Shown: positions 3,622 through 38,810 of the stretch, in pieces | Numbering within the stretch: the first letter of the stretch is position 1 | Layout of the letters: every line of letters starts with the position of its first letter | Assembly (NCBI GenBank): GCA_024226555.1 | Contig: JAAELO010000496.1 | Span: 1-62,836 of the forward strand | DNA from: Desulfobacterales bacterium | Lineage (GTDB): Bacteria > Desulfobacterota > Desulfobacteria > Desulfobacterales > JAAELO01 | DNA: 62,836 nt | Direction: 5' to 3' | Translations under genes and position numbers: made by a program | The notes under the pieces: model-generated | Databases searched by the model: none | What the model saw: only the letters and a program-made list of their open reading frames with translations | Told to the model about the DNA's origin: nothing

Positions 3622-3633
3622 TATATGTCTATC

Positions 3634-4485: not shown

Positions 4486-4487
4486 TT

Positions 4488-23142: not shown

Positions 23143-24399
23143 TTAAGCATTAACTTCTCTAATTTTTTCCAACATATCAATCGAGACTTTACCATTTACA
23201 CCGGTGGGGAATTTACTTATAAAATAAAAGTTAGAAGGAAATGGTTCAGAATATTTATTTTCATATGATTTCCTCAGCCCAATCAGATCTAATTCATCTC
23301 CTTCGATATAAGATATAAGGGAACCACCTTTTAAACTTTTATCATTCTCTTTGAAGTGACATATTATTTGACAAGAGCTTATTAGATTTTTTAAGTTATT
23401 CTCAACCTTATCTAAAGAGAATCTTTTACCACCATACTTAAAAATTCTGTCGTTACGACCTTTATAAATAAACTTACTTTTATTAATTAGATTTAGGTCA
23501 TCAGCAAGAGGTACCCAGGTTTTACCAATAAATTCAGACATGATCATTGTCTCATCTTCGGAAGACTTTTTCAGTCGAACTCCCTTTAGAGTTTTGAAAG
23601 GATTATCTTTTTCAATAATACGATAACCAATCCCTCCTGTTTCAGTGCTGCCATAAAGTTCGTAGAAATCTGTGTCTTTGTATTCAAGCAAAAGTTTCTC
23701 CCGCTTTGATCCAAAATTTGCACTGGAACTTACTACAGAATCTATTTTGTTTTTTGTTAACAGATTTTCTACTAAGGGCCACATGGCAGGTACTGATACT
23801 AATAGTTTTATGTCATTGCTAATTTCATCCATATTAAATAATCCACCTATTGGTTTGGCAAAGGTTACAGATGCTCCACTAAGAACTGAAAGTAAAAAGC
23901 CGTGTAAAAAACCATATATATGAAAAGGAGAAACAAGACTTAATATTTGATCATAGGGTTTGATTTTATATAGATCGCGTAATACTAAAGCTTCAGATAA
24001 TAATTGAAACCAGTGTTTTTCAATTTGTTTAGCATTGCCTGTTGAGCCGGATGTTAAAAAACAAAGACAAACTCCTTTTTTTATAAAATATGAGTCTTCA
24101 GGTATGTTTTCAGATATCGATTCATCAAGCATGGTTTTTATATCAAGTTTTCCAGGGTCCCACAAACATGCTGTTTTATTAATCTCTGGTGCTAAAACCG
24201 GAACTAATCCTGCAAGCAATGACGCACCTATAGCTATAAGTCCTTCAATATTTGAGTGAATTAAAGGTAGTATTTTATCGTTTTGAGAAAAAGTGTCAGG
24301 GATTTTTAAAGATAATATATAACAAAGCTTTAAGTATTCATCCCAACTTATGCTAATGTTATTTTCAGATAATTGAGAACCACTCAGTTCATTAAACAA
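23143..24399 (-). CDS. AMP-forming acyl/aryl ligase of the polyene cluster
   Basis: 418 residues, shorter than typical acyl-CoA ligases but usual for ligases in aryl-polyene clusters. CFLTSGSTGNAKQIEKH is the ATP/AMP P-loop, FYELYGSTETGGIGYR the A5 region, and YKGRNDRIFKYGGKRFSLDK the hinge with GxR. It should activate an aryl acid such as a cinnamic or hydroxybenzoic acid for transfer to an acyl carrier protein. It is the last gene of the 17-gene operon, overlapping the lipoprotein gene by 16 bases. The lysine of the C-terminal A10 motif is probably in FPTGVNGKVSID. Confidence 0.85.
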   Translation of the reverse strand: MFNELSGSQLSENNISISWDEYLKLCYILSLKIPDTFSQNDKILPLIHSNIEGLIAIGASLLAGLVPVLAPEINKTACLWDPGKLDIKTMLDESISENIPEDSYFIKKGVCLCFLTSGSTGNAKQIEKHWFQLLSEALVLRDLYKIKPYDQILSLVSPFHIYGFLHGFLLSVLSGASVTFAKPIGGLFNMDEISNDIKLLVSVPAMWPLVENLLTKNKIDSVVSSSANFGSKREKLLLEYKDTDFYELYGSTETGGIGYRIIEKDNPFKTLKGVRLKKSSEDETMIMSEFIGKTWVPLADDLNLINKSKFIYKGRNDRIFKYGGKRFSLDKVENNLKNLISSCQIICHFKENDKSLKGGSLISYIEGDELDLIGLRKSYENKYSEPFPSNFYFISKFPTGVNGKVSIDMLEKIREVNA

Positions 24400-24899
24400 T
24401 CTAACTCCTCCGTAAAGATCTGAATTAAAATACCAGGGGCTTTAGTCCAACGAATCTCAATTTTTTTTGGAAAAAGACAACCGGAAAAATCCTTAAACTC
24501 TGTGAATTTTATTTGCTCTTCTGAATCTCTATTCTGGTTGTAAACATAAAATATTAAATGGAATAGTTTATCTTCAGGAAGTGGTAACTCCTTTGGCTTT
24601 TTAATATGCCATTTAATATTTTCTTTTTTATCTCTCATTCTATAACTTAGAATTGGTGTAAGCATTATTGAATCCAGAAAAACAACTCTATCTTCGCTTT
24701 TAGAGCGTTGAAGCTGGGCCATCATAATAAATTCTTTATTGTTATTTACAACTTTTACTTTCTGATAGGCATAGAAATTTTTGGGGAACAGATATGTTGA
24801 ATCTGTTTTTTTATTCTTAAAAGAACAACCAATTGGAGTAATCATTAAAGCGATGACTAAAGTTTTAATAATGATATTCATTGTTTTATATGCTTTCAA
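24384..24899 (-). CDS. DUF3261-type lipoprotein of the polyene cluster
   Basis: 171 residues with a lipoprotein signal whose lipobox is ITPIGC (Cys25). The rest is strand-rich (FYAYQKVKVVNNNKEFIMMA, then VVFLDSIMLTPILSYRM), as in the small DUF3261 lipoproteins that accompany aryl-polyene exporters. The start is probably the TTG at 24899, which has CAGGAG ten bases before it; an ATG lies 18 bases downstream. It is encoded between exporter and ligase and probably helps place the polyene lipid in the outer membrane. Confidence 0.75.
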   Translation of the reverse strand: MKAYKTMNIIIKTLVIALMITPIGCSFKNKKTDSTYLFPKNFYAYQKVKVVNNNKEFIMMAQLQRSKSEDRVVFLDSIMLTPILSYRMRDKKENIKWHIKKPKELPLPEDKLFHLIFYVYNQNRDSEEQIKFTEFKDFSGCLFPKKIEIRWTKAPGILIQIFTEELDCLMN

Positions 24900-24906
24900 C
24901 TTAATT

Positions 24907-26994
24907 CTACTCCTGGGGAATATTTGTGAACAAACAGGTTATTAAAGAACTTGTTGCACCAATAACAACGACCAAACCTAAATGCTTTAGAACAGGATGT
25001 TGGGCCAGAACCAATACCCCAAATGAGAAAATTGTACTTAAACCTGTTAAAAGAATTTTACTTTGCTCACTCTTTCCAAAGTTGGATGATACTGCAAGCG
25101 CAGGATAATCGAGTGCAACTGCAATTACTAAGGAAAGGCCCACAATATGGATGAAATTAATATTTTGCCCGATATAATTAAAGTACAAAGTAAGAATCAT
25201 AAGGCTGACTGCAAGAGGTGCAAAAATATATGCAATTTTCATAATTTTTCTTTGAAGTGGTATGATATATAGCATCATTATAACCAACCCTATCATAAAC
25301 AGGTTAAATATGTTGTTTTGGATAGAAGTCAAAAGAGTATCATAATAAAATTTAGGGTTAACAGGATAACCTTTATCGATTCCCTGATTCTCAATCATAT
25401 TGTTTGAAGGATAATAAAGATAACTATCCTGACCATGTTTAAAGAACCAGGGCAAAGTTGATACTTCATTACAAAGTGAAAGATAATCAAAACCTGTCAT
25501 TGGTTTTAGCTCATTAACCCATTTTGAACTTAGATAATCAGGATTAATACCAATTTTTACAAGTTTTTTTGAAAGTTTCTCAAGCATTTCAGGGTACTCT
25601 TTGTTCAGGTACTTTATAGTTTTTTTCTGGGTTTCAATTGTTTTATAAAATTTTAGTGGATGAAACCCCTTTGTAAGTTTCTCCTTTTTAAGCATTTCAA
25701 AAGTCATAAGAGGTTCGTTTTCAATTTTAACAGAATAGATATGACCAAGTGACATCGCTTCAAGTTTCTTTGAAAAAATATCTGCATTTTTCTGTAGAGT
25801 GGATGAATTAAATTGAAAATCTTTAATATTGGTTTTCATTGAAGGAATTGGAACCATAAGAAAAAATATAATAACACCAACCCAGAAAGTCGCCATTACT
25901 CCAGGTTTAATCTGAAACTTTTGAATATTAAAGGTTCTGTATTGAACCTTTGATAAGTGGTCCTGATATATTAACAGGAATATAATAAATCCTACCATCC
26001 CACCTATGGATACGAGAGCTATCTGTTTTAAAATTATACTTTTTCCAAAAAGAAGTATAATAAATCCAATTAGTGTCGTTCCAATTGCTGATCCAAGACC
26101 TACTAAAGATTTTAAGCGATCTTTTTTTCCAATACCTGACAGGTGTATAAGATATTCATTGTTGAACCCAACAAAAGTAGAAGTAAAAGCAAGAACAATC
26201 GCATAGAAAGATGGATAGAATATTCGCACTACTGAAAGACCTGATGCATAGGAAACAAATGTTCCAACAATAAGAAAAAGAATTAAGTAATAATTCCTGC
26301 ATAGCAGCCCAAATATCAGAAGGTTCAGTGGAATAGATATCCATAGACAAAATGGGATATCATCCCTTACAGACCTGTAGTTTTCATATGCAAAAAAATC
26401 ACTTCCAAGAAATGTTATCTCTTTCTGATCCATAAGATAATCATATACTTTTCCAACTGATTCGAAATGCAATGCTCCAACTCTTTCAAAAACAACAATA
26501 TTGGATCTGTTATTTGTTTTTACACCTTTAAATTTTGAAAAGGTTTCTCTTTTCAACGAGAACGGATCGATCAGATAATTCTCAACTAATCCGGAGCTTC
26601 CAGGTAAATTAATATATTTTTTTATTGTCTCAAATGATTGTTCCACTCTCTCATCAGTAAGAATTTTTTCTAAATCATCTTTTGATGTTAATGATGTAAT
26701 AACATTAAGTGGAATTTTGTTGAACTTTTGATGGTCAATGAAAGGAACTCTTTTATACCTGTTATCTGTAAAAATTTTATCTAACAGATTAATATCAATT
26801 TTAGAACCTGACGGGATCTCCACATAAACTCTGCTGCTGAAAAAAGAGCTCTTCTGGTAATTATCAAATACTGCTTTTCTGGTTTTGTCTGATTCTACAA
26901 GAGATGATATTATATCCTCTTCAAGTTTCATCCCATTTGTTGCAACAAATGTTAATGCTGTGGTTAGTATTATAACAATAATTGCACGAATCAT
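24907..26994 (-). CDS. MMPL-family exporter of the polyene cluster
   Basis: 695 residues, shorter than the 844-residue exporter at 4.5 kb. An N-terminal helix (IRAIIVIILTTALTFVATNG) is followed by a periplasmic domain, helices with VRIFYPSFYAIVLAFTSTFV and a GLGSAIGTTLIGFIILLFG block, a second periplasmic domain, and helices with GLSLVIAVALDYPALAVS. It ends abruptly after ITCLFTNIPQE. The acidic relay residue in ALDY is kept, whereas the matching position in the first half reads FVGFNNEYLIH. The adjacent LolA-like and lipoprotein genes imply transport of the acylated or glycosylated polyene to the outer membrane. Confidence 0.88.
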   Translation of the reverse strand: MIRAIIVIILTTALTFVATNGMKLEEDIISSLVESDKTRKAVFDNYQKSSFFSSRVYVEIPSGSKIDINLLDKIFTDNRYKRVPFIDHQKFNKIPLNVITSLTSKDDLEKILTDERVEQSFETIKKYINLPGSSGLVENYLIDPFSLKRETFSKFKGVKTNNRSNIVVFERVGALHFESVGKVYDYLMDQKEITFLGSDFFAYENYRSVRDDIPFCLWISIPLNLLIFGLLCRNYYLILFLIVGTFVSYASGLSVVRIFYPSFYAIVLAFTSTFVGFNNEYLIHLSGIGKKDRLKSLVGLGSAIGTTLIGFIILLFGKSIILKQIALVSIGGMVGFIIFLLIYQDHLSKVQYRTFNIQKFQIKPGVMATFWVGVIIFFLMVPIPSMKTNIKDFQFNSSTLQKNADIFSKKLEAMSLGHIYSVKIENEPLMTFEMLKKEKLTKGFHPLKFYKTIETQKKTIKYLNKEYPEMLEKLSKKLVKIGINPDYLSSKWVNELKPMTGFDYLSLCNEVSTLPWFFKHGQDSYLYYPSNNMIENQGIDKGYPVNPKFYYDTLLTSIQNNIFNLFMIGLVIMMLYIIPLQRKIMKIAYIFAPLAVSLMILTLYFNYIGQNINFIHIVGLSLVIAVALDYPALAVSSNFGKSEQSKILLTGLSTIFSFGVLVLAQHPVLKHLGLVVVIGATSSLITCLFTNIPQE

Positions 26995-27010
26995 TTATAC
27001 CTGAGCCTTC

Positions 27011-27619
27011 TTATTTCAGTTTGTTTAATTGAATATCAAGAACTTTAAGTGTGATCTCTTCATTTTTTGTCTGGAACTCAATTTTGTTAAATTTATATGA
27101 ATTGTCAAAATAAATTTTAAAATATTTCATAGGTGATCGATCGGGATTCTCTTTTGGTATTGCTGAAAGAATATTGTTCTTTAAATTAACATGGAAATTC
27201 TTTTCAATAACTTCAAGCTTACCTCCCATAATCGACAGAATAAACTGTATTATATTGTCTGTAGTAGTATTACTCATTTGAGGTAAGGATATATATTCTC
27301 CTGTTTTCTGATCAAGAACTTTTATTTTTTTATCTTTAATTATCAGACCTGGTTGTTTGCTCCCACTTTGTCTCCACTCGATATAGTTTGGCCGATAATT
27401 CATGTGTATTATCGATTTAACAGGCCTTATAAACAGTTTACTTTTTTTAATCTGCTTAAATTTTACTTTGATACTTTCAATGCTCTGATAGTAGGAGATA
27501 ATAGATTTTTTTGTTAGCTCTGAGGCAGAACATTCAGCATTATTATAGAAAGATATACAAAGAAATAAAATACAAAAATAAAAGGTCAGACTTATTTTTA
27601 TTAGTTTTTCTTTATTCAT
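27011..27619 (-). CDS. LolA-like periplasmic carrier of the polyene cluster
   Basis: 202 residues. It has a signal-like hydrophobic N-terminus (MNKEKLIKISLTFYFCILFL) and then SYYQSIESIKVKFKQIKKSK, the first helix and strand of LolA. Strands with PNYIEWRQSGSKQPGLIIKD and KIKVLDQKTGEY follow. It belongs to the LolA-like family next to MMPL exporters in aryl-polyene clusters. It overlaps the thioesterase gene by 8 bases and lies 16 bases before the exporter gene. It would carry a hydrophobic cargo through the periplasm. Confidence 0.82.
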   Translation of the reverse strand: MNKEKLIKISLTFYFCILFLCISFYNNAECSASELTKKSIISYYQSIESIKVKFKQIKKSKLFIRPVKSIIHMNYRPNYIEWRQSGSKQPGLIIKDKKIKVLDQKTGEYISLPQMSNTTTDNIIQFILSIMGGKLEVIEKNFHVNLKNNILSAIPKENPDRSPMKYFKIYFDNSYKFNKIEFQTKNEEITLKVLDIQLNKLK

Positions 27620-28031
27620 TTTTAAATCCCATCTGAAATCTTGTTAATATCTCTTCGGGTACATTGAAAGAGGGTTTTAAAGTTTCAATTTCCAGATAAA
27701 TCTGTCTTGTTTTCCCGGTTACATGGATCTCTTGCAATGGTGAACTGATTTTATAATCAATATCTAAACTGGGGTATTCAAATTCAGATACTTTAGCTTC
27801 AATATTTATAAGAGTTCCATAGGGCGTTGACTGTCTATACTTTGCATTACAATCAATTATTGGCATAGCATAACCAAGATCTCTCAACTGTGTCCAGTCA
27901 AGTTCAAATTTTTGCATAAGTTTGGTTCTGGCCATCTCAAAATACTTAAAATAATGTCCATGCCAGACAATTTCCATAATATCAATGTCATGGAATGGAA
28001 TCTCATGTGTTACGCTTGCTGATACGCTCAT
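27612..28031 (-). CDS. Hotdog thioesterase (4HBT/YbgC-like) of the polyene cluster
   Basis: 139 residues, a single hotdog domain. HDIDIMEIVWHGHYFKYFEM contains the Asp and the helix start typical of 4-hydroxybenzoyl-CoA-thioesterase-like enzymes, but the usual D-x-x-G-H-V-N site is changed here to DIMEIVWHGHY. It should release or proof-read acyl chains on the carrier protein. It begins 2 bases after the ammonia-lyase stop. Confidence 0.85.
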   Translation of the reverse strand: MSVSASVTHEIPFHDIDIMEIVWHGHYFKYFEMARTKLMQKFELDWTQLRDLGYAMPIIDCNAKYRQSTPYGTLINIEAKVSEFEYPSLDIDYKISSPLQEIHVTGKTRQIYLEIETLKPSFNVPEEILTRFQMGFKNE

Positions 28032-28033
28032 AA

Positions 28034-29563
28034 TTAAATACCCTTTTCAACAAAAAGAAAGTTAACCATATCTTTAATATCCTGATCCATCGGCCGATCT
28101 TCTATTACAGGTTTGTAAACACCAGATAAACTATCCAATAACTCTTTTAATTCAGGACTGAAATCAAACTCTATATTAGATTCCTTAGAAACATAGTAAG
28201 CCTGAAGCAATCCCATTGTGTTTATAGCTGCGCATTGCTCTGACATCACAAGCTGATCTCTGAAATCTCTCGCAGCAATTGTACCCATACTAACAACATC
28301 CTGATTATTTTTTTCTGTACTTCTTGATAGAACAGCGGCTGAAAAAGAGTTTTTTATCACTTCAGTTGTTAGAGCTGAAACTGTTATTTGCATAGCTTTA
28401 TAGCCATGGTTTATAAGCTGGTTATCCCCCAATGAAGGAGCTGTAAGATTTTCAGTCAACCAGCTTACCTGGGTACACTCCATTAAGTAAGCCATCTGAC
28501 GATCAATCAGGTTTGTTACTGTCCCCATGGCAGTTTTCAGATTATCCATAACATGGGCTATGTGACCACCAAAAAAATGTCCTCCATTAAGAACCATTCC
28601 CTCTTTATCAAGAACAACAGGATTGTCATTTGTTGAATTGATCTCGATATTCACAACTTTACCTGCCCACTCGATAGAATCAATTAAGACACCTAACACC
28701 TGTGGTGTACAACGAATTGAGTATTTATCCTGAATTGCCCCAACCTTTGCTGGTAAATCAACTTTATCTTTTTTCAACAACCCTCTTATCATTGATGCTG
28801 CTTCAATTTGACCAGGATGGGGTTTTCTTAAATGCAGTTCCTCAGCAAATGGAGAATGACTGCTTTCAAATAGTTCAACCATGAGAGCAGTATTGAAAGC
28901 TACTATTTTAGCAAGTTGTTTAGCCCTTATGATAGTCAAAGAAGCGATAGCTGTCATCACGGATGTTCCGTTCATAACAGAAAGAGCTTCTTTCTCTTTA
29001 AATATGTATGGTTTGATTTTAAGTTTCTCTAACACGTCAGATGCTTTGCAAACTTTTCCTTCATAATAAACATCACGCCTCCCCGAAAGAGCTGCAGCGA
29101 TGTATGAGAGTGGAGTTAGATCACCACTTGCTCCAACTGAACCCTGTGCTGGAATACATGGAATAATTCTGTTTTTTATGAAACAGTCAAAGCTTTCAAG
29201 TAGTTCAAAACTTATACCACTACTTCCCTGTGCCAGTGAAACCAATCTAACTAATAAACTGGCTGCGCATTCCTCTTCACTTAAAATGGGCCCAACTCCG
29301 CATCCATGGAATTCTATCAGGTTTTTCTGTAAATCCATACTCTTTTGAGTATCAAATCTATTTGTAGAAGATCCTCCAAAACCTGTTGTCACACCATAAA
29401 TTGGACAATCTTCAGAAATCAGATCCATAAAATACTTGTGATTACTCTCTATTGAGGATTTATAAGCATCATCCTTTGAGAGATTATACTCTGACTGTTT
29501 ATTGCAAGCAAATTCAGCTATATCATCTATATCCATCTGATTAAAACTTGAAATTTCTACCAT
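28034..29563 (-). CDS. Aromatic amino-acid ammonia lyase (MIO enzyme)
   Basis: 509 residues, close to bacterial HAL/TAL length. The MIO-forming triad is Ala145-Ser146-Gly147 in GSVGASGDLTPLSYIAA, and Tyr56 in PIYGVTTGFG is the mobile-loop catalytic tyrosine. ENNQDVVSMG and NDNPVVLDKEGMVLNGGHFF are further active-site segments. The substrate-selectivity pair, in NLIEFHGCGVG, reads Phe85-His86, which is neither the Ser-His of histidine lyases nor the His-Leu or Phe-Leu of classical TAL and PAL. In this operon it most likely makes a cinnamic or coumaric acid starter for the polyene. It has a tight 4-base gap from the glycosyltransferase gene. Confidence 0.92.
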   Translation of the reverse strand: MVEISSFNQMDIDDIAEFACNKQSEYNLSKDDAYKSSIESNHKYFMDLISEDCPIYGVTTGFGGSSTNRFDTQKSMDLQKNLIEFHGCGVGPILSEEECAASLLVRLVSLAQGSSGISFELLESFDCFIKNRIIPCIPAQGSVGASGDLTPLSYIAAALSGRRDVYYEGKVCKASDVLEKLKIKPYIFKEKEALSVMNGTSVMTAIASLTIIRAKQLAKIVAFNTALMVELFESSHSPFAEELHLRKPHPGQIEAASMIRGLLKKDKVDLPAKVGAIQDKYSIRCTPQVLGVLIDSIEWAGKVVNIEINSTNDNPVVLDKEGMVLNGGHFFGGHIAHVMDNLKTAMGTVTNLIDRQMAYLMECTQVSWLTENLTAPSLGDNQLINHGYKAMQITVSALTTEVIKNSFSAAVLSRSTEKNNQDVVSMGTIAARDFRDQLVMSEQCAAINTMGLLQAYYVSKESNIEFDFSPELKELLDSLSGVYKPVIEDRPMDQDIKDMVNFLFVEKGI

Positions 29564-29567
29564 AAAA

Positions 29568-31199
29568 CTATTCCTGTCTCTTCCAAAAAGGATAAAAGTT
29601 AAACCAATTATATGGTTTTTTCCTAACCCATTTTTCTAAATTATTTTTATATAATTGAGATAACTCAATTGCACTTCTGTTTTCAACACCATCCCACAGT
29701 TCGATAACTTTTAACTCATATGGAGAGTGTGGCAGAGGTCCTTTTTTGCAACATGAAAACTGATATACATTTTTTTTGAAAATTCGCGCTATTTCAAAAG
29801 GTGCTAATGAAAATGTCGCTTCTTCACCAAGAAAATTCATATCTATTGTTTTATCATTTATGCCGGCCCTATCAGCTAAAAAGCATACGCATCCACCATC
29901 ATCGATAAAATTTTTGATATCAAAAACAACCTCCATTGCATCCCTTGAAGAATCTATTATTTTTAATTCCTTATTGTTTAGCAGACCTACTTTACCCTGA
30001 AAAATGGGAGTATTTCCCAGGTCAACAACCAGTGCTATTGAAAGTTCCGTTTGGGCTAAACCCAGTCCACAAAAAAACCAGTCTCCGTAATGGGCACCTA
30101 TTAAAATTGACCCACCTTTCAGGTCATCTTCCATTGATCTGACTTCATCTTTAACGCTTAATACTTTACTTCCCCATTCAGGATCATTTATTGTAGCCAT
30201 TCTATCTATAAGAGAACAGCCAAAATACCAGAAATTTTTGAAGCCTGTAAATATGCCATGGTTCTTATTTCCAAGGTTCTTATATAGCTCCTTTAAGCCA
30301 AGTCTTGCAATTTTTCCAGTAAAAAAGTAAAAAAGCAGTGGGAATAAGGCGATGAGGTAGCTAATCTTTTGACCTCCATACTTCATAAAAAAGTGGAGTA
30401 TATGGCTTCCTTTTCGCTCGTCAGCCTGTTTGAAATGGCCTGAGTAAATTATACCAAAACTTATAATATATAATATTCTTATGGTGCAGAGTTTTGTATG
30501 TATAATACTAAGTAGAAAATTATCTTTTATTTTATTAAAATGACTGACTCTAAGGTGTCGAGGAGGATAGAACACTTCAACATCGGAACTAATAACAGGC
30601 GTTCCTTCCCAGTTAGATCTTGTAAGTATTTCTATCTCAAAATCATAACGATTGCATGTGAGTTTTTCAAAAGGTATTTTTAAAACAGGATAAGCTCTGA
30701 AACCTGATTGAGTATCCTTTAATTTTAATCCTGTTTCCATAAAAACCCAAAAATTTGAGAATGAATTACCCAACAGGGTTTGATTCGGAATATCTCCCGA
30801 AGATTGTGATGAAAATTTTCTGGCACCGATTATTATGCTATCAGGGTTTTTTTGAACTGAGCGAATGAGAACAGTCAACTCTTCTGCAATATGTTGTCCA
30901 TCTGCATCGAAGGTTATTATGGTTTTGAAATTATTTTCTTTTGCAAAGTGTAATGATGATTTTATTGCAGAACCTTTACCTGAATTACTCCCATGATTTA
31001 TTATAAACTTTGGCTTAGCTTTTTTTATATTATGAGGGGTTTGATCTATTGACCCGTCATTTACAACAAGGATATTATCAGTAAATTTTTTACAATCATT
31101 TATAACGTTCTGAATCGTCTCTTCGTTATTATAGGTTGGTATAACAACAAGAACGTTCAAATTATTAAACAACTCATTTATTTCAGTAATATTATCCAT
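29568..31199 (-). CDS. Glycosyltransferase-2 fused to an LpxL-like acyltransferase
   Basis: 543 residues in two parts. Residues ~15-240 are a GT-A glycosyltransferase: VVIPTYNNEETIQNVI, VVNDGSIDQT and TFDADGQHI, giving the DxD-like metal site. From ~285 the chain has a membrane-associated segment and a lauroyl-acyltransferase domain with LIGAHYGDWFFCGLGL (His and Asp of HxxxxD type) and VCFLADRAGIND. This same fusion is a hallmark of aryl-polyene clusters, where it probably glycosylates and acylates the lipid anchor. It sits between the methyltransferase and the ammonia lyase. Confidence 0.9.
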   Translation of the reverse strand: MDNITEINELFNNLNVLVVIPTYNNEETIQNVINDCKKFTDNILVVNDGSIDQTPHNIKKAKPKFIINHGSNSGKGSAIKSSLHFAKENNFKTIITFDADGQHIAEELTVLIRSVQKNPDSIIIGARKFSSQSSGDIPNQTLLGNSFSNFWVFMETGLKLKDTQSGFRAYPVLKIPFEKLTCNRYDFEIEILTRSNWEGTPVISSDVEVFYPPRHLRVSHFNKIKDNFLLSIIHTKLCTIRILYIISFGIIYSGHFKQADERKGSHILHFFMKYGGQKISYLIALFPLLFYFFTGKIARLGLKELYKNLGNKNHGIFTGFKNFWYFGCSLIDRMATINDPEWGSKVLSVKDEVRSMEDDLKGGSILIGAHYGDWFFCGLGLAQTELSIALVVDLGNTPIFQGKVGLLNNKELKIIDSSRDAMEVVFDIKNFIDDGGCVCFLADRAGINDKTIDMNFLGEEATFSLAPFEIARIFKKNVYQFSCCKKGPLPHSPYELKVIELWDGVENRSAIELSQLYKNNLEKWVRKKPYNWFNFYPFWKRQE

Positions 31200-31202
31200 T
31201 AA

Positions 31203-32273: not shown

Positions 32274-33413
32274 TTAATCACTCTCCGAATAGTAAAATTT
32301 TCCTTTTGAACAAACTGATTCACCATTAGTAATTTCCCAGTGGGCAAATCCCTTTTGTTTTAGATTTATGGTAATATCAATACTGGTATCCGGAAGTATT
32401 TTATCTAAAAACTTTACACGGGACAGTTTTGTAACAACTATTTCATACCCCAGATGTTCTGAGATTAACTGATTAATTATTTCGATCTGACTAATCCCGG
32501 GCAATATTGGAAATTCTGTGAAATGGCCATCCAGATGAACGTGATTCTTAGTTATTATTGTGGTAGCCTTAATTCCATTTTTATCTTTTGAACAAATTTT
32601 AATATCATTTTCACTACTATATGCCTGTTTGTGCCAGGCTAAAGAAAGTTCAGATTTAGATGTATTAATCATTTTCTCTTGAAATTCACACATTAGTTTT
32701 TTTTCACTCTCTTTTTTACTGGCTTTTGGGATTTTCAGTGGTGGTAAAAAGAACATTCGATAATGAACACAACTTAAGTCGTACCTGAACATTCTTTTAT
32801 TAATAAAAGGCCTGTTAGTAGTTAAAAAAACAGGAACAATTGGTATATTGGTTTCAACTGAAATTCTGAATACACCCCTTTGTAACTTCTGAAGTAGTCC
32901 ATTTGTTGACCTTGTTCCCTCAGGGAAGATCACTACTTTTTTACCGGCCCTAAGCAGTTGTTTTACTTTACCATAGGCACTTATGACACTTGCCGGGTTA
33001 TTTTTATTTACAGGGATATAACCACAGGATTTTATTATGGGAAGTAGTAGTGGATTTCTTACAAATTTAACATTTACAAGGGTGTAACAATCTGGAACAG
33101 AAGCTAAAATCGTGACTATATCAAACATCGAGATATGATTACATGCAAATAGCTGCCCACCTTTTAGCCCACCCAAATCTTCATATCGAATATCGATAAA
33201 ACGAAAAAATCTGGTATAAATCAGAACAAATCTGAATGCATACAAATTAATTATATGACATATTTTTAGATACCTTTTTTTACTTCCAAGGGACAAAACA
33301 AAAATAAGTGGCATAAAGATTAAATAAAAAATACTCATAAAAACAAATATTGAAAAGCAAAAGCAATGCTTTAAAACATAGGTAGTTTTTAAAAAAATAT
33401 TATCTTCTTTCAT
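32274..33413 (-). CDS. Lysophospholipid-type acyltransferase fused to a hotdog dehydratase domain
   Basis: 379 residues. Two hydrophobic segments precede a PlsC-like acyltransferase with NHISMFD (His93, Asp98) and FPEGTRS (164-170). From ~275 a separate hotdog domain starts, with HLDGHFTEFPILPGISQIEI (His297), the pattern of ApeI/FabZ-like dehydratases, and SRVKFLDKILPD. In characterised ape clusters I know these functions from separate genes, so one chain here joins acyl transfer with dehydration or acyl-chain handling. The gene overlaps its upstream neighbour by 14 bases. Confidence 0.85.
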   Translation of the reverse strand: MKEDNIFLKTTYVLKHCFCFSIFVFMSIFYLIFMPLIFVLSLGSKKRYLKICHIINLYAFRFVLIYTRFFRFIDIRYEDLGGLKGGQLFACNHISMFDIVTILASVPDCYTLVNVKFVRNPLLLPIIKSCGYIPVNKNNPASVISAYGKVKQLLRAGKKVVIFPEGTRSTNGLLQKLQRGVFRISVETNIPIVPVFLTTNRPFINKRMFRYDLSCVHYRMFFLPPLKIPKASKKESEKKLMCEFQEKMINTSKSELSLAWHKQAYSSENDIKICSKDKNGIKATTIITKNHVHLDGHFTEFPILPGISQIEIINQLISEHLGYEIVVTKLSRVKFLDKILPDTSIDITINLKQKGFAHWEITNGESVCSKGKFYYSESD

Positions 33414-33933
33414 AGATTAATCCTCCACCAACTGTTGTGATGAACATTAGAACTAAAAATATATATGAAAGAAATCCTGAATATAGAAGCCATATCTTAA
33501 GTGGAAAAGCAAAAAGTAAAATAAAGAAAATAAAAGAGTTTACAGAAAGACCAACTATCCATAATACACTGGCTTTATGTAGATATTTTTGTTTTTCAGG
33601 TGTTATTTTAACAAACCTTGATGAATAGAATTCAAGAGCTGAGATCTCTTTTCTCTGACAAGTAATAAAAAAAGCCAGAACAGTTGTGGACATGAGAAAA
33701 GGATAGAGCCTAACAAGGTTATCAGGTTCTACAAAAGAAACAGCTATTGTTGAAAAAAACAAAAGGGTTCCTGTCATCCAGAATCTCTTTCTTTGATTAA
33801 AAAGCATATATAGCATAGCTGCAAATAGTAATACATATTTACAATATGCTGGTGCATGGTACTTTTCAAAACCGTAGATCATAAAAGGAAAAACAATAAA
33901 AAAAAGCCCGAAAATTTTTTTAACGCTTTTCAT
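33400..33933 (-). CDS. COG4648-like small membrane protein
   Basis: About 177 residues from the ATG at 33933; an upstream in-frame ATG at 33960 would overlap the ACP gene more deeply. Five or so hydrophobic segments are seen (KKIFGLFFIVFPFMIYGFEK, YCKYVLLFAAMLYMLF, LLFFSTIAVSFVEP and others). Proteins of this type occur regularly in aryl-polyene clusters between the carrier protein and the acyltransferase; their role is unknown. The start is overlapped by a perfect palindrome (33932-33949). Confidence 0.75.
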   Translation of the reverse strand: MKSVKKIFGLFFIVFPFMIYGFEKYHAPAYCKYVLLFAAMLYMLFNQRKRFWMTGTLLFFSTIAVSFVEPDNLVRLYPFLMSTTVLAFFITCQRKEISALEFYSSRFVKITPEKQKYLHKASVLWIVGLSVNSFIFFILLFAFPLKIWLLYSGFLSYIFLVLMFITTVGGGLIYERR

Positions 33934-34183
33934 GGTATAAGTATACCATTTCGTATACATCTTTCATTGTTCTGATTCCTTGAACCTCTTCATTTTCAGG
34001 TTTGAAACCGAACTCTTTCTGAAAAGCAATAATTAGATCTATCGCATCAAGACTATCTAAATCAAGGTCTTCATAAAGTCTTGATTCGGGCTTCAACTCA
34101 TCAGGTGAAAGTTCAAAAAGATCACGCATGATTTCATTTGTTTTAACTACAATTTTTTCCTGTAACTCAACTGAAATTTCCAT
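33920..34183 (-). CDS. Acyl carrier protein 2 of the polyene cluster
   Basis: 87 residues. DLDLDSLDAIDLIIAFQKEF has the phosphopantetheine-attachment serine at residue 44. The flanking helices (VELQEKIVVKTNEIMRDLF and TMKDVYEMVYLYHEKR) complete a four-helix carrier. It lies one base downstream of the FabF-like ketosynthase gene, so it is probably the partner of that enzyme. No phosphopantetheinyl transferase gene is in the window. Confidence 0.92.
   Translation of the reverse strand: MEISVELQEKIVVKTNEIMRDLFELSPDELKPESRLYEDLDLDSLDAIDLIIAFQKEFGFKPENEEVQGIRTMKDVYEMVYLYHEKR
33932..33949. promoter_or_regulatory. Palindrome at the ACP/membrane-protein junction
   Basis: ATGGTATA and TATACCAT form a perfect 8-bp stem with a 2-base centre over the start of the membrane-protein gene and the end of the ACP gene. 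A messenger hairpin here could couple translation of the two genes. It may also be chance within AT-rich code. Confidence 0.35.
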
Positions 34184-34184
34184 T

Positions 34185-35408
34185 TTAAAACCTCGATATC
34201 ACTAATGATGCATTAATTCCACCAAAAGCAAAACTATTTTTTAATATATGTTTAATCTTATGTTCCCTACATTCTCCTTTTACATAATCCAGATCACCGC
34301 AATCAGGATCAGGATTTTCAAGGTTTAAAGTTGGGACAAGTTTCTGATCACGTAACATTGCTATACAACCTGCTGTCTCTAAAACGCCGCAAGCTCCCAT
34401 GGTATGACCGATATTGCCTTTCAATGAGCTTACAGGAGTGTTATTTCCAAAGATATTTTCAATAGCTTTTGATTCTGCAATATCACCAATTAGTGTTGCA
34501 GTGCCGTGTGCATTAATATAGTCGATGTCAGATGGAGTAAGATCAGCATCTCTTAATGCACCTTTCATACAGTTGTTAAGTCCTGTTTCTGATGGGTTTG
34601 TCATATGAACTCCATCATTATTGGTATAATATCCAACAACTTCACCATAGATTATAGCACCACGGTTTATTGCATTTTCCATATCTTCAAGGATTATAGT
34701 TCCTGCTCCTTCACTAATAACAGTGCCGTCGCGATTCTCATCAAATGGTCTCGGTGATAGATGGGGTTTATCATTATATTTTGTAGATGTTGATCTCAAT
34801 GTATCGAAAACAGACGCCACTGAAACATGAAGTTCTTCAGCTCCCCCACAAACCGCTACATCAAGACGCCCCTCTTTAATGGCTTGATAACCAAATCCAA
34901 TTCCCTGTGTACTGGCAGCACATGCAGTACAACTCGCCATTGTAGGGCCTGGTATTTTAAAGGCTGTTCCTATATTTGCTGCGCATGTATGGGACATTAT
35001 CTTTAAGAAAGTTGTGGACATAACCCCTTTTGTTACGTTTCCATCAACAGTCGAACCGAAAAAATCCTGTATTGCACTTGTTCCACCCATTGTTGATCCA
35101 TAGGATATTCCGGTTCTTTCGTTTTCAATAAGTTCTTTTGATAAAGATGCATCATCAAAAGCCATTTTGGTTGCTGTTACAGCAAGTTGAGCTACCCTGC
35201 TCATTGAACGACGTTCTTTTCTTGGGATGTTTTTCTCTGAGAAATCCTTTACAGATCCTCTAAGATGGGTTTCCAGACCAAAAGGCACCCAATCTGTATC
35301 AGATTCTATTCCGGATTTTCCCTTGTATAAATTTATTATAAAATCTTCAAACGTATTTCCTAAAGGAGAAAGTAAACCCACTCCGGTTATAACTACCCTG
35401 CGACTCAT
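34185..35408 (-). CDS. FabF-like beta-ketoacyl-ACP synthase of the polyene cluster
   Basis: 407 residues with the complete Cys-His-His triad: Cys163 in MASCTACAASTQG, His301 in NAHGTATLIGD and His335 in SLKGNIGHTMGACG. It is full length for KAS II. By analogy with known aryl-polyene pathways it may start or extend the chain as a homodimer, separately from the ketosynthase/chain-length-factor pair encoded upstream. It overlaps the ketoreductase stop by 4 bases. Confidence 0.93.
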   Translation of the reverse strand: MSRRVVITGVGLLSPLGNTFEDFIINLYKGKSGIESDTDWVPFGLETHLRGSVKDFSEKNIPRKERRSMSRVAQLAVTATKMAFDDASLSKELIENERTGISYGSTMGGTSAIQDFFGSTVDGNVTKGVMSTTFLKIMSHTCAANIGTAFKIPGPTMASCTACAASTQGIGFGYQAIKEGRLDVAVCGGAEELHVSVASVFDTLRSTSTKYNDKPHLSPRPFDENRDGTVISEGAGTIILEDMENAINRGAIIYGEVVGYYTNNDGVHMTNPSETGLNNCMKGALRDADLTPSDIDYINAHGTATLIGDIAESKAIENIFGNNTPVSSLKGNIGHTMGACGVLETAGCIAMLRDQKLVPTLNLENPDPDCGDLDYVKGECREHKIKHILKNSFAFGGINASLVISRF

Positions 35409-36124
35409 GAGTAAAGTCCCCCGTTAACCTGAATTACAGTCCCATTGATGTAGGATGCATCATCTGACGCCAAAAAACCAACAACTCCCGCAACTTCAGA
35501 AGGTTTTCCAGCTCTTCCAACAGGTACCATCTCTTTTATATTTATGTGCTCAAGATCTTTTGTCATTTGCGTGTCAATAAACCCCGGACTAACAGAGTTT
35601 ACCAGAATTCCTTTACGGGCAACCTCTTTTGAAAGAGCTTTTGTAGCCGCAATGACAGCTCCTTTTGCTGCTGAATAATTAACCTGCCCTCGGTTACCCA
35701 TCTCTCCTGAAACACTTGAAATTGTAATTATACGTCCCCATCTGTTACTTATCATGTGAGGAAGGCATGCCTGGTTAAGATAAAAAAATGAGTTTAAACT
35801 TATTTGAATAATATCATCCCACTGATTTTCTGACATAAAATAGAATGCTGTATCACTCATTGCTCCTGCGTTATGAATTAAAATATCAAAACCAGTATCA
35901 TCTGTAAAAATTTCTGAAATTTTACTTTTTATATCATCAATATCTAAAAGATTCATACAGATTGCAGAAATTTTGTTTTGACCAGATAGCTCATCCACAA
36001 GATTATTAGCTTCTTCACTTCCACTGTTATACGTAAAAGTGATCTCGTAATCATTATGAAGTTTACGAACTATAGCCTCTCCAATGCCTCTGTTTCCGCC
36101 TGTTATCAGTGCTCTTTTGATAAT
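35405..36124 (-). CDS. FabG-like 3-ketoacyl-ACP reductase with apparent ATT start
   Basis: About 239 residues, normal for FabG. RALITGGNRGIGEAI is the NADPH-binding turn, ITISSVSGEMGNRGQVNYSA supplies the Ser and Tyr, with Lys in YSAAKGA, and INGTVIQVNGGLYS is the family end. Starting at the first internal ATG (35998) would remove the cofactor site. The full frame has no ATG, GTG or TTG upstream of the glycine motif; the best start is ATT at 36124, with GGAGAG just upstream inside the dehydratase gene (19-base overlap). It reduces the beta-keto group in each polyene cycle. Confidence 0.85.
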   Translation of the reverse strand: MIKRALITGGNRGIGEAIVRKLHNDYEITFTYNSGSEEANNLVDELSGQNKISAICMNLLDIDDIKSKISEIFTDDTGFDILIHNAGAMSDTAFYFMSENQWDDIIQISLNSFFYLNQACLPHMISNRWGRIITISSVSGEMGNRGQVNYSAAKGAVIAATKALSKEVARKGILVNSVSPGFIDTQMTKDLEHINIKEMVPVGRAGKPSEVAGVVGFLASDDASYINGTVIQVNGGLYS

Positions 36125-36549
36125 AACTCTCCTTCTTCAATTAAAAACTTCATAGAAGCTTCGGATATTAGAGTATCTCCGGACATAACTTTGCAGGAGT
36201 AAACTCCAATTGGAAAAAGATCCATCTCCATTGTTGCAATAATATTAATTTTATCACCAGGTTTTAGTTTCATGGATTCAAATAACTCATAAGAATCAAT
36301 AGAAATTAAATAACCCATCTGGGGTTTATCATTTGCATTAGTTTGCTTCTGGTGGAAAGCTGCAACCGCTTGAGCCATCATTTCAATTGACCAATATGTT
36401 TTGAACAAACTATTTTTATCCCAATATGGTTTATTGATATCCAGAGTTAAACCAATTGTTGCTTTATTCTGATCAAAATCGATAGATATATAATTATCGA
36501 TTAGCTTCATAAAGCCACTGTGAGGAATATAATTTTTAACAGATTCCAT
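36106..36549 (-). CDS. ApeP-like hotdog dehydratase of the polyene cluster
   Basis: 147 residues. YIPHSGFMKLIDNYISID has the catalytic-type His, and TYWSIEMMAQAVAAFHQ gives the hotdog helix with Glu. This matches the small beta-hydroxyacyl-ACP dehydratases of aryl-polyene and xanthomonadin clusters. With the hotdog domain fused to the acyltransferase it may form the pair of dehydratase subunits expected for polyene assembly. It lies 9 bases downstream of the chain-length-factor gene. Confidence 0.87.
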   Translation of the reverse strand: MESVKNYIPHSGFMKLIDNYISIDFDQNKATIGLTLDINKPYWDKNSLFKTYWSIEMMAQAVAAFHQKQTNANDKPQMGYLISIDSYELFESMKLKPGDKINIIATMEMDLFPIGVYSCKVMSGDTLISEASMKFLIEEGELLSKEH

Positions 36550-36558
36550 ATTTAATTC

Positions 36559-37314
36559 CTAATTATGCTCAAAGTCCCATTTTGATAGAAACCCGTCTGA
36601 ACTATTTGATAATGCAAATCTTGTATAATTTTCAAAGTGGTTATCCAAATCAAGGTATAACGCTTTGTCAGGATCCTTACTTTCTATAAAAACCTCTTTT
36701 GACAAAGTATCAATTTTTTTAATCTTATCCAATAGATCGGGACTCTGTTTAATCTTTTCAAGATTACAAACAGGTTCATTACCAATTATTTTATCATTAC
36801 CCAGAACTATTATCTCAGCTTTAGCTATGATATCTCCCTTTGGCCATATATATTCATTAGCATTGATTATTATAACAAATGGGGCTAAACCAAACTCAAC
36901 ATTTTTAGCTCCAAAATAAAGGGCATTGTCCACAGATAAATATCCTTTGGACATTGTTAGACTTCTGTTATGAAGCCCAAGAACCAATGCAATATATCCA
37001 GCAGTGGCATTATCCACAGAGTGCTGGAATGCTGTGGGAGATACAGGAAACAGATCATTTGAAACATCTTTAACTGTATTATAGATCGCTTCTATTTCTC
37101 CAAAAGCACTTGTGAAAACAATAGGGATATTGCAATCGCTTTTCAACAATTCAAACAGGTCAGGTCTTTTTTCCTGAAGTTCAAGACAAAGTTTAATACA
37201 TGTTTTTTGCATTATACCCATGCGTCTTGCAAGTTTAAATGAAAGATCTATCTCATTTATATTTTTTACACTTAGTTTTTTGTAATATACAACCGCGACC
37301 ATATTTTTACTCAT
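36559..37314 (-). CDS. Beta-ketoacyl synthase chain-length-factor-like protein
   Basis: 251 residues, a short ketosynthase-like chain lacking the active-site cysteine. PTAFQHSVDNATAGYIALVL is the signature of the chain-length-factor family, in which the nucleophile position is not Cys, followed by NRSLTMSKGYLSVDNAL. It ends after residue 251 without the second half of a ketosynthase. It overlaps the upstream ketosynthase gene by 8 bases, which fits a heterodimer with that enzyme. Confidence 0.85.
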   Translation of the reverse strand: MSKNMVAVVYYKKLSVKNINEIDLSFKLARRMGIMQKTCIKLCLELQEKRPDLFELLKSDCNIPIVFTSAFGEIEAIYNTVKDVSNDLFPVSPTAFQHSVDNATAGYIALVLGLHNRSLTMSKGYLSVDNALYFGAKNVEFGLAPFVIIINANEYIWPKGDIIAKAEIIVLGNDKIIGNEPVCNLEKIKQSPDLLDKIKKIDTLSKEVFIESKDPDKALYLDLDNHFENYTRFALSNSSDGFLSKWDFEHN

Positions 37315-38464
37315 TAAAACCTTTGGAAGATGTTAATAACAAAGATGCATTACTTCCACCAAAACCAAAAGAGTTACTAAGTGCAACTGGTTTATCACTA
37401 TTTATACTCATTTTTTTTTCTTTTAATATTTCTGTATGGAGATTTTGATCATCTAAAGCCTTAAGGGTTAGAACAGCCTCCAGAGCACCAGCACCAGCTA
37501 AACAATGGCCAGTGTACTGCTTCGTTGTATAATAGGGGATATTCTCAAACATATTATCTATTGATAATCTTTCTGCCTTGTCGTTTGGTATTGTGCCTGT
37601 TCCATGGGCGTTAATGAATCGTACATCACTTGATTTATACGAACTATTATCAAGGGCCATTTTCATTGTAAATTCCATACCTTTACCATTTGGTTCAGGG
37701 TGTGTTGGATGATATCCTTCACTACTAACACCATAACCTACTATATGACCTATTGGTTCATGACCATTTTCGTCTGCCTCAATAACTATTACAGCTCCAC
37801 CCTCGGCAAGATTAATACCATTTCTGTTTTTATGAAAAGGATTGCAAAGATCATTATCCAGAACCTGCAAGGAATCAAAACCACAAATTGTTACAGTGTT
37901 TAAAAGATCAAACCCACCTGCAATACAGGCTTTTAACATTCCTGATTTAACGGCTAAGTAAGCTTCGCCAATTGCTATTGCACCAGAAGAACAAGCAGTT
38001 GAAACAGCAGTTGAAAAACCTTCAATTGGAAAGCGACTGGCAATCTCTTCAATCAATTTACCTGTTTGCATCATCTTGCTTGCAAAATTAAAAATACTGG
38101 GGTTATCTTTACTGGTATTATAAGATTTGAAGGTTTCTTCTATACCATATGTGGTGGAACCAATTATCAAGCCTATTTCAGATGGCTGATATCGGTCGAA
38201 AAGCCTTGTTTGTTCCTGAAGGTCTTCAATCCAGTGGCTTATAATGTGGTTAACGGATTTATCACATGCAGATTCAGAAGGTTTATCAAGACCAAAACTT
38301 TCAAAATTCATTTCACCAAGAGGAGATTTTGTCCATTTTTTAAATCTATGATTAAATGTCTGACCACGTTCTTTTCTATAAAGTTTAGTTATTATTTCAT
38401 CAATATTTGAACCAAGGCAACAAGAAGCTGAGACCCCAGTAATTTTTGTTCTTTTTGGTAACAT
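37307..38464 (-). CDS. Ketosynthase of the polyene cluster (partner of the chain-length factor)
   Basis: 385 residues with a complete triad: Cys158 in VSTACSSGAIAIGE, His287 in NAHGTGTIPND and His320 in YTGHCLAGAGALEA. The last motif deviates from the usual GHTLGAAG but keeps the histidine. It would elongate the aryl polyene with malonyl units on the carrier protein. It is the second gene of the operon, 18 bases after the first ACP gene. Confidence 0.93.
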   Translation of the reverse strand: MLPKRTKITGVSASCCLGSNIDEIITKLYRKERGQTFNHRFKKWTKSPLGEMNFESFGLDKPSESACDKSVNHIISHWIEDLQEQTRLFDRYQPSEIGLIIGSTTYGIEETFKSYNTSKDNPSIFNFASKMMQTGKLIEEIASRFPIEGFSTAVSTACSSGAIAIGEAYLAVKSGMLKACIAGGFDLLNTVTICGFDSLQVLDNDLCNPFHKNRNGINLAEGGAVIVIEADENGHEPIGHIVGYGVSSEGYHPTHPEPNGKGMEFTMKMALDNSSYKSSDVRFINAHGTGTIPNDKAERLSIDNMFENIPYYTTKQYTGHCLAGAGALEAVLTLKALDDQNLHTEILKEKKMSINSDKPVALSNSFGFGGSNASLLLTSSKGFNE

Positions 38465-38482
38465 AGAACTTTCAATTCCTGG

Positions 38483-38746
38483 TTAGTTTTGCACAACTTC
38501 AATAGATTCAACTATTGTATTAACATTTTGTAATATCTTACGGCCCTTTTCATCATTTTTGATTTTAAGTCCATACTTTCTGTCTAACATTACAACCAAT
38601 TCCAAAAGATCTATGGAATCAAGTCCAAGGCCGTCTGAAAAAAGAGGCATTTCATCCTCGACCTCATCCACTGTTATCTCTGGTTGATTCAGAATTTGAA
38701 CGATCAACTCTTTTACTTCATTTTCTACAACACTACGCACAGTCAT
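38483..38746 (-). CDS. Acyl carrier protein 1, first gene of the polyene operon
   Basis: 87 residues. GLGLDSIDLLELVVMLDRKY places the phosphopantetheine serine at residue 44. The chain otherwise differs strongly from the second ACP (34.0 kb), suggesting separate jobs such as starter and chain carriers. It starts the 15.6-kb operon; all following genes are spaced by less than 20 bases or overlap. The only upstream DNA before a mobile element is 64 bases. Confidence 0.92.
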   Translation of the reverse strand: MTVRSVVENEVKELIVQILNQPEITVDEVEDEMPLFSDGLGLDSIDLLELVVMLDRKYGLKIKNDEKGRKILQNVNTIVESIEVVQN

Positions 38747-38810
38747 TAAATAAAAAACCTTTCATTTTAATGACCCATTTTGTTAATGGGGTAATTTATA
38801 ATTCTATTGA
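38747..38810 (-). promoter_or_regulatory. Leader of the polyene operon
   Basis: These 64 bases separate the first ACP gene from a miniature element. A CCCATT/AATGGG hairpin (38774-38790) lies within, and a T-rich/A-rich stretch ATTATAAAT near the element edge could be a -10 region on the minus strand. A promoter partly inside the element cannot be excluded. Confidence 0.4.

Follow-up and report, generated by a model that had tools for sequence, protein, structure and literature searches.

Genes at the locus

We analyzed a stretch of 62,836 nucleotides of DNA from a Desulfobacterales bacterium (contig JAAELO010000496.1 of assembly GCA_024226555.1; hereafter, the window) and found that it contains a long gene cluster whose proteins correspond to those of the aryl polyene (APE) cluster of Escherichia coli. 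The core of the cluster is a run of 17 open reading frames (ORFs) from 23143 to 38746, all on the minus strand, with distances of -41 to +18 bases between neighbors. These distances agree with an initial description made from the letters of the DNA alone (the sequence-only reading), which gave a one-stranded operon with overlaps or gaps of fewer than 20 bases. The ORFs that were named or implied in that reading exist, but the seventeenth, encoding a membrane protein of 186 amino acids, had been left out of its list. Likewise, the run itself is real, but a gene for an ApeA-like lipoprotein, located 215 bases upstream of the run, had been overlooked. The operon very probably starts one gene earlier, with this predicted lipoprotein of 133 amino acids. 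All 18 frames are open along their whole length. The G+C content is flat at 31-36% across positions 1-60000, and therefore the operon is not distinct by composition.

The operon corresponds to the APE cluster of E. coli

We compared the operon proteins with ApeA through ApeR of the APE cluster of E. coli CFT073, using BLASTP in both directions. Fifteen of the 18 CFT073 proteins (ApeA, B, C, D, E, F, G, H, I, J, K, L, O, Q, and R) were reciprocal best matches of proteins in the window; for ApeI, the match is to its own section of a fusion protein, the overall best match of which is ApeD. The remaining three were connected by other means: ApeM by a one-way match, ApeP by Pfam (exceeding the cut-off by 0.9 bits) and by its similarity to a Moellerella protein, and ApeN by position, size, and lipobox. 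The hallmarks of APE clusters are present, that is, ApeO together with a half-size ApeC, the second ketosynthase ApeR, the ApeI/ApeP pair, ApeQ, the acyl carrier proteins (ACPs) ApeE and ApeF, the ligase ApeH, the acyltransferase ApeD, and ApeJ (with an altered motif described below). The active-site motifs that were inspected are intact except for that of the ApeJ acyltransferase; the ketoreductase and the exporter were outside the inspected set.

Because 15 of the 18 CFT073 Ape proteins are reciprocal best matches, we assign the operon, by its sequence, to the APE clusters, as a divergent variant of a known cluster type. The predicted gene set is near-complete to complete for a yellow, probably antioxidant pigment of the outer membrane. 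A same-strand run whose proteins nearly all match one characterized cluster is not a chance arrangement. The sequence-only reading was borne out in describing an operon of aryl-polyene type that carries an ammonia lyase, two acyltransferases, and export genes, and its placement of the product in the outer membrane is probable. The two hotdog dehydratases of that reading are ApeP and the ApeI domain that is fused to the ApeD acyltransferase. The genes of the operon and the evidence for each are listed in Table 1.

Table 1. Predicted genes of the APE operon in the window, in the direction of transcription. Percentages are amino acid identities; cut-offs are those of the family models.
Feature	Coordinates	Strand	Evidence
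ApeA-like lipoprotein, 133 amino acids, lipobox LTGC; probable first gene of the operon	38962..39363	-	BLASTP: Moellerella ApeA 32%, 5e-16; Enterobacter 28%, 7e-10; CFT073 ApeA 27%, 8e-10, reciprocal best
ApeE, ACP (starter-loading by homology)	38483..38746	-	PF00550; CFT073 ApeE 39%, 5e-15, reciprocal best
ApeO, elongating ketosynthase	37307..38464	-	PF00109/PF02801; CFT073 ApeO 32%, 5e-51, reciprocal best; Cys and both His in place (alignment, by inspection)
ApeC, half-size chain-length factor without active-site Cys	36559..37314	-	PF13723 36 bits (cut-off 25); CFT073 ApeC 2e-5, reciprocal best; profile comparison 95% probability
ApeP, hotdog dehydratase subunit	36106..36549	-	PF22817 (ApeP-like) 27.9 bits (cut-off 27); Moellerella ApeP 28%, 3e-12; no significant pairwise match to CFT073 ApeP
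ApeQ, ketoreductase, apparent ATT/ATC start	35405..36124	-	PF13561 1e-52; CFT073 ApeQ 39%, 4e-53, reciprocal best
ApeR, second ketosynthase	34185..35408	-	NF006587 464.8 bits (just under the cut-off of 470); CFT073 ApeR 44%, 2e-123
ApeF, ACP (malonyl-carrying by homology)	33920..34183	-	NF003757 76.4 bits (cut-off 65); CFT073 ApeF 47%, 6e-22
ApeG-like membrane protein, 186 amino acids, COG4648 type	33400..33960	-	CFT073 ApeG 20%, 1e-4 or 0.006 by direction; Acinetobacter ApeG 2e-7; no Pfam match
ApeD-ApeI fusion: PlsC-type acyltransferase (~1-245) and ApeI hotdog dehydratase subunit (~256-379)	32274..33413	-	PF01553 79.8 bits; PF07977 23.6 bits (cut-off 23); PF22818 (ApeI-like) below cut-off, E 0.014; CFT073 ApeD 9e-15, ApeI 4e-7; HX4D and GHF motifs kept
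ApeB/FlxJ-type S-adenosylmethionine-dependent methyltransferase	31203..32273	-	FlxJ-family model NF053543 447.8 bits (cut-off 560); CFT073 ApeB 44%, 3e-109
ApeJ, glycosyltransferase family 2 fused to LpxL-type acyltransferase	29568..31199	-	PF00535 and PF03279; CFT073 ApeJ 26% over 557 columns (whole length), 1e-51; Glu to Phe in HX4E
Aromatic amino acid ammonia lyase, tyrosine/phenylalanine type	28034..29563	-	PF00221 459 bits; motif ASG of the 4-methylideneimidazole-5-one (MIO) cofactor
ApeK, thioesterase	27612..28031	-	PF13279 52.5 bits; CFT073 ApeK 36%, 7e-29
ApeL, LolA-like periplasmic carrier	27011..27619	-	NF053544 (LolA2_flexi) 38.8 bits, 6e-10 (cut-off 125)
ApeM, MMPL/RND-type exporter	24907..26994	-	TIGR03480 1.5e-6; profile comparison 85% probability
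Lipoprotein in the ApeN (DUF3261) position	24384..24899	-	Position, size, and lipobox only
ApeH, AMP-dependent aryl-acid ligase	23143..24399	-	PF00501; CFT073 ApeH 25%, 6e-16; TSGSTG, YGSTETG, and C-terminal Lys present

All 18 genes of the E. coli CFT073 cluster have counterparts in the operon (ApeN by position only). Both clusters have a fused ApeJ and overlapping genes on one strand, and neither contains Dar genes. They differ in that the genes in E. coli are ordered from A to R, whereas transcription in the window proceeds in the order A-E-O-C-P-Q-R-F-G-DI-B-J-lyase-K-L-M-N-H. In addition, ApeD and ApeI are separate in E. coli and fused in the window, the window adds a lyase, its ApeJ has Phe in place of a conserved Glu, and identities are 20-47% where BLASTP aligned the proteins.

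The APE clusters of Acinetobacter baumannii and Pseudoalteromonas share with the window the run J-lyase-K-L-M, then N. In contrast to the window, ApeJ is two genes in these clusters, a gene for a flavin adenine dinucleotide oxidoreductase lies between M and N, and the annotation of the cluster includes no methyltransferase. In the APE cluster of another genome of the same phylum (G274), we found D, E, F, G, H, I, a fused J, K, M, O, Q, and R. The order there is E. coli-like, D and I are separate, and ApeA, ApeB, the lyase, ApeC, ApeL, ApeN, and ApeP had no match over threshold in 30 kb.

These comparisons change what sets the operon apart. The MIO lyase had been taken as a mark of a distinct variant, but the clusters of Pseudoalteromonas and Acinetobacter have a lyase at the corresponding position, and flexirubin clusters have FlxA. 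The fusion of a glycosyltransferase to an acyltransferase, likewise no mark of a distinct variant, is already found in E. coli ApeJ, and the lack of DarA/DarB is shared by the E. coli cluster. Gene order and the acyltransferase-hotdog fusion, also proposed as differences, held up; the ApeD-ApeI fusion was seen nowhere else in the sampled loci. That is, the operon belongs to the described ape family but is not identical to it in architecture (order, ApeD-ApeI fusion, and, relative to E. coli, the lyase). The biology of the pathway is already known, and what is distinct here is the gene order, the ApeD-ApeI fusion, and the altered ApeJ motif.

The ammonia lyase and the starter unit

In Pseudoalteromonas THAF3 and A. 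baumannii VB31459, the gene for an aromatic lyase comes after the glycosyltransferase/acyltransferase genes and before the thioesterase gene, as in the window. The window lyase is 39-40% identical to these lyases, and the motifs FHGCG and NQD are common to all of them. We aligned 57 lyases, including that of the window (of 59 homologs, 3 were excluded from both the alignment and the tree because of their short length). Motif 1 of the window lyase reads FHGCG, and its motif 2 has Gln. FHGCG is also present in Pseudoalteromonas, Acinetobacter, a metagenome-assembled genome (MAG) of Spirochaetaceae, and 8 of 12 loci from the same order. According to one published study, motif 2 is Glu in histidine ammonia-lyases (HAL) and Gln in tyrosine and phenylalanine ammonia-lyases (PMC3992019). 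The second lyase of the genome, encoded on another contig (L183), served as an internal control and is HAL-like, with SH at motif 1 and Glu at motif 2.

The lyase tree places the window in a 17-row clade (support 1.0) that comprises two gammaproteobacterial APE lyases, two Spirochaetaceae rows (the same gene read twice), 12 rows from the same order, and the window. HAL rows and rows called Bacteroidota-type, which is the default label for every locus not otherwise named, are outside this clade. We rejected the idea that the window lyase is a histidine lyase, based on Gln at motif 2, FHGCG at motif 1, and the separation from HAL rows. By its motifs and placement, the enzyme is classed as a tyrosine/phenylalanine-type lyase. 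It is not a FlxA-type tyrosine lyase: it scored 329 bits with that model (cut-off 700) and has a different motif and clade.

The starter unit in E. coli APE is 4-hydroxybenzoate (PMC8253772). We found no match to ubiC (chorismate lyase) in the genome, which is 98% complete, and the E. coli control was positive. Because the lyase is of the tyrosine/phenylalanine type and no ubiC was found, the starter in the window's pathway is probably made by the lyase and is probably 4-coumarate. The MAG is 98% complete, and so it is possible that a ubiC-type gene is missing from it. The chorismatase family PF21168 had no match in the genome, but neither did it in any control, and this search therefore carries no weight. 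No XanB2-type chorismatase family was among the Pfam and NCBIfam matches listed for the operon proteins.

The ApeD-ApeI fusion and the altered motif of ApeJ

In the window, ApeI is not a separate protein but forms the C-terminal part of ApeD. The A. baumannii ApeI, by contrast, is joined to ApeH and pairs with ApeP as a heterodimeric dehydratase with one active site (PMC8041823). We looked for fusions in 124 loci, a few of which overlap one another and many of which are cut by contig ends, using an ApeI profile made from seven sequences including that of the window. This profile test was used because a BLAST test missed the known Acinetobacter ApeH-ApeI fusion and the profile recovers it. Apart from the Acinetobacter fusion (7.9e-16), the profile found no ORF longer than 250 residues that has an ApeI domain at E <0.001. 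None of the 39 ApeD-like ORFs in the 124 loci had an ApeI tail, and five of the 39 have tails of at least 80 residues. Among 274 genomes of the class of a Spongiibacteraceae MAG (G678), 50 had an ApeD-type match, and among the matches listed none extended past query residue 250. In the open-licence literature, the passages of PMC8253772 do not describe an ApeD-ApeI fusion. From the fusion by itself, we infer that the ApeI/ApeP dehydratase would be tethered to the membrane acyltransferase ApeD.

HX4(D/E) is the catalytic motif of the acyltransferase family to which ApeJ belongs. The acyltransferase half of the window ApeJ reads HYGDWF where its relatives read HxGxxE; that is, the Glu of HX4E is Phe, a change that the sequence-only reading did not mention. 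Glu is present in 65 of the 69 aligned rows (window included; one gene is counted twice, as L084 and L185), Phe is found in the window, and single rows have Ala, Gln, or Asp. The rows with Ala and Gln are acyltransferase relatives in L025 (19070-19966) and L077 (2888-3781), respectively, so the loss in the window is rare but not unique.

Alternatives to the APE assignment

Several of our results weigh against a simple equation of this operon with the APE pathway of E. coli. Some of the gene identities are weak. The match to CFT073 ApeL, although reciprocal, had an E value of 0.002, and profile comparison gave it 30% probability. CFT073 ApeM found the window exporter at 3e-4, but in the reverse direction it ranked third (E 7.8). 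The ApeG match is weak though reciprocal (20% identity; 1e-4 in the better direction). The protein in the ApeN position had no pairwise match in CFT073 and a probability of 0.1% in profile comparison with ApeN; single-sequence AlphaFold models of this protein (mean predicted local distance difference test score, pLDDT, 34.9) and of the ApeD-ApeI fusion (37.8) were uninformative. In trees, the methyltransferase falls among 29 Bacteroidota-type rows (support 0.788) and ApeO among 20 (support 0.972), although only one ketosynthase ORF was taken from each locus, which has several, so the ApeO rows may mix paralogs. The published rule for motif 1 of the lyase cannot separate tyrosine from phenylalanine as the substrate, and FlxA itself deviates from it. 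Lastly, because the Glu of HX4E is absent, the ApeJ step may be different from that in E. coli.

The other trees were mixed or in favor of APE. ApeR of the window groups with six gammaproteobacterial rows, one row from the same phylum, and three from the same order (support 0.999), apart from the Bacteroidota-type rows. ApeQ groups with APE rows, with a support of only 0.292, and ApeJ is in a mixed clade that includes six Bacteroidota-type rows (support 0.998). Homologs that were too short had been dropped from these trees (41 of 71 for ApeJ; 2 of 68 for ApeR). Flexirubin clusters (Chitinophaga, Flavobacterium) resemble the operon in having a tyrosine ammonia-lyase, a FlxJ-type methyltransferase, LolA2, and a type II polyketide core. 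They differ in that the lyases of Bacteroidota rows have RSH at motif 1, the glycosyltransferase and acyltransferase are separate ORFs, and dialkylresorcinol genes are present. Xanthomonadin clusters (Xanthomonas, Lysobacter, Azoarcus) share aryl-polyene chemistry, a glycosyltransferase, an acyltransferase, LolA, and an exporter with the operon, and are set apart, by their published description, by a XanB2-type chorismatase that supplies the starter (PMC3949708). The term "ammonia lyase" is absent from the main text of that paper.

It could be argued that the operon is of the flexirubin type and that its polyene acid forms an ester with a dialkylresorcinol produced by unlinked DarA and DarB, as in arcuflavin of Azoarcus. 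The methyltransferase is closest to the FlxJ model and to Bacteroidota proteins, flexirubin biosynthesis likewise reaches coumarate through a lyase (PMC3992019), and unlinked Dar genes are known in Azoarcus (PMC3949708). We consider this extremely improbable. No protein in the whole genome exceeded the DarB cut-off of 550; there were eight weak matches, the best with 47.8 bits, and 9 of 14 control genomes also had weak matches, none over the cut-off. ApeR and the lyase are outside the flexirubin groups in the trees, and the enterobacterial APE clusters in our comparison are marked by ApeA and a fused ApeJ. For DarA, no such family was among the matches listed for the operon proteins (25 of 228 in the case of the ketoreductase), and no genome-wide search for it was made. 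We rejected membership in the flexirubin clusters on the lack of a DarB match over the cut-off, the clades of ApeR and the lyase, and the FlxA score below cut-off, and we file the cluster, by sequence, as APE with a methyltransferase nearest the FlxJ side.

Within the APE assignment, two further alternatives concern how the pathway works. One is that the pathway uses the E. coli starter, 4-hydroxybenzoate, and that the lyase serves another purpose. The E. coli cluster functions without a lyase (PMC8253772) and none is in the CFT073 record, no lyase is annotated in the Moellerella cluster, and ApeH is homologous to the enzyme that loads 4-hydroxybenzoate. However, ubiC is unmatched in the genome, and the lyase gene is part of the operon, separated by 4 and 2 bases from the genes on either side, making this very unlikely. 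The other is that the cluster is decaying, with a dead ApeJ acyltransferase, a ketoreductase gene that has lost its normal start, and an ApeI joined to ApeD by loss of a stop codon. The change of Glu to Phe in ApeJ, the ATT/ATC start, and the fusion itself could each be read in this way, but every one of the 18 frames is open and the other active-site motifs inspected are intact, and we regard decay as highly improbable. The reading that we prefer is a functional APE operon with a lyase-made starter.

Gene starts and the region upstream of the operon

No ATG, GTG, or TTG start yields the full N-terminus of the ketoreductase; the listed start is a GTG at 35998. The frame opens after a TGA, the only candidate starts ahead of KRALITGG are GTT, ATT, and ATC (36119-36124), and GGAG is just upstream. 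Because there is no conventional start upstream of KRALITGG, it seems likely that translation starts at ATT or ATC, which is rare, or that there is an error in the assembly.

A divergent gene resembling those for acyl-CoA synthetases (named from its sequence) lies at 39786, upstream of the ApeA-like gene, and therefore a promoter of the operon would fall in 39364-39785. Promoter-like sites in a consensus scan were not above those in shuffled sequences (9 versus a mean of 8.1 upstream; 1 versus 5.0 in a second scan). Terminator-like sites upstream did exceed shuffles (3 versus 0.2), but all of them are on the plus strand and thus they are no argument against reading of the operon. There is also a small hairpin between ApeA and ApeE (38774-38790) that is terminator-like only when read on the plus strand.

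Related clusters in other genomes

In a scan of genome contigs with a five-sequence alignment as the query, relatives of the methyltransferase (the best 80 of at least 573) are mostly from Bacteroidota and 42-50% identical. We also searched 58 genomes, including that of the window, for the methyltransferase. Matches at E <= 0.001 were found in 39 of the 58 and were weak besides that of the window; the best outside its own genome had an E value of 8e-11 and 23% identity. Of 297 genomes sampled from the phylum, that of the window was the only one with the FlxJ family at E <= 1e-40. A search of this sample with ApeJ mostly matched the glycosyltransferase half, and outside the window's own genome both halves were matched only in G274.

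ApeR was more widespread. Relatives with 41-47% identity are present in 15 of 296 other genomes of the phylum. We examined the regions of 12 of these 15 and of G274, leaving out G100 and G261. All 13 regions hold further operon-type genes, from two (L200) to eleven (G274) besides ApeR, and none of the 13 has an ApeD-ApeI fusion. Because ApeR relatives are present in 15 of 296 genomes and all 13 regions have further operon-type genes, such clusters are not rare in the phylum. Polyene clusters were noted earlier in Proteobacteria, Bacteroidetes, and one spirochaete (PMC3949708).

Two families of the same order (f35 and f60) carry clusters of different build. By eye, the gene order of the window was not seen among the printed architectures of the loci, many of which are cut short. 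The clusters at five loci of the same order (L055, L056, L058, L061, and L062) contain an APE-type lyase, ketosynthases, and a glycosyltransferase but are built differently, and those of L056, L061, and L062 also carry MMPL-like ORFs of 1033-1045 amino acids. In another genome (G003:C22:19614-20450), a glycosyltransferase match with five in-frame stops adjoins an APE-like cluster and is perhaps a pseudogene or an effect of frame.

Other features of the window and the genome

The window contains a second export-like set on the minus strand (2233-7022, read from the sequence), with an MMPL/RND-like protein of 844 amino acids, a periplasmic-protein-like protein of 283, and an outer-membrane-like protein of 462. 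An ORF of 200 amino acids (11605-12207), also read from the sequence, resembles the C-terminal part of an acyl-CoA dehydrogenase alone and is possibly a fragment. A gene for a protein with the ARPP-1 domain PF20208 (20137-21219; 190.6 bits) is downstream of a metallophosphoesterase gene (22192-23040) on the same strand.

Two matches to the phosphopantetheinyl transferase (PPTase) family are located elsewhere in the genome, and these enzymes could activate the ACPs of the operon. The second match lies at a contig end (G000:C754; L160, L218, L219), ~600 bases from a gene that matches the DarB model weakly and is probably like ketoacyl-ACP synthase III, and this site may mark another lipid or polyketide locus.

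Proposed pathway and implications

Based on the correspondence to E. coli, we think it very likely that the product of the operon is an aryl-polyene lipid, synthesized and exported to the outer membrane along the APE route of E. coli and Xenorhabdus. The model follows the reconstituted Xenorhabdus pathway and the deletion-tested E. coli pathway (PMC8253772), with the lyase step modeled on flexirubin (PMC3992019). The lyase would deaminate tyrosine (or phenylalanine) to 4-coumarate (or cinnamate), and ApeH would adenylate the aryl acid and load it onto ApeE. ApeO-ApeC, aided by ApeR, would condense the starter with malonyl units on ApeF; ApeQ would reduce each keto group and ApeI/ApeP would dehydrate the product to give a conjugated polyene. 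ApeB would methylate the aryl ring and ApeK would edit or release the chain. The chain would be joined to a lipid anchor by ApeD and ApeJ, and ApeG, L, M, N, and A would carry the lipid to the outer membrane, where it would quench reactive oxygen. The ApeD-ApeI fusion would tie the dehydratase to the membrane acyltransferase that receives the finished chain.

It is conceivable, although we consider it unlikely, that the tethering of the dehydratase to ApeD places chain assembly and hand-over at one membrane site, that ApeJ without its catalytic acid leaves ApeD alone to attach the chain or uses a different mechanism, and that the anchor is unlike that in E. coli and Xenorhabdus.

Our results add an APE cluster for a lineage whose family-level group is represented by this genome alone among the 58 sampled. 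The natural ApeD-ApeI fusion suggests that ApeI/ApeP sit together with ApeD. In the E. coli work of 2021, what anchors the APE chain had yet to be established, and the APE lipid of Xenorhabdus had just been solved (PMC8253772). The change from Glu to Phe in the window ApeJ would be a natural experiment on this step, the attachment of the chain.

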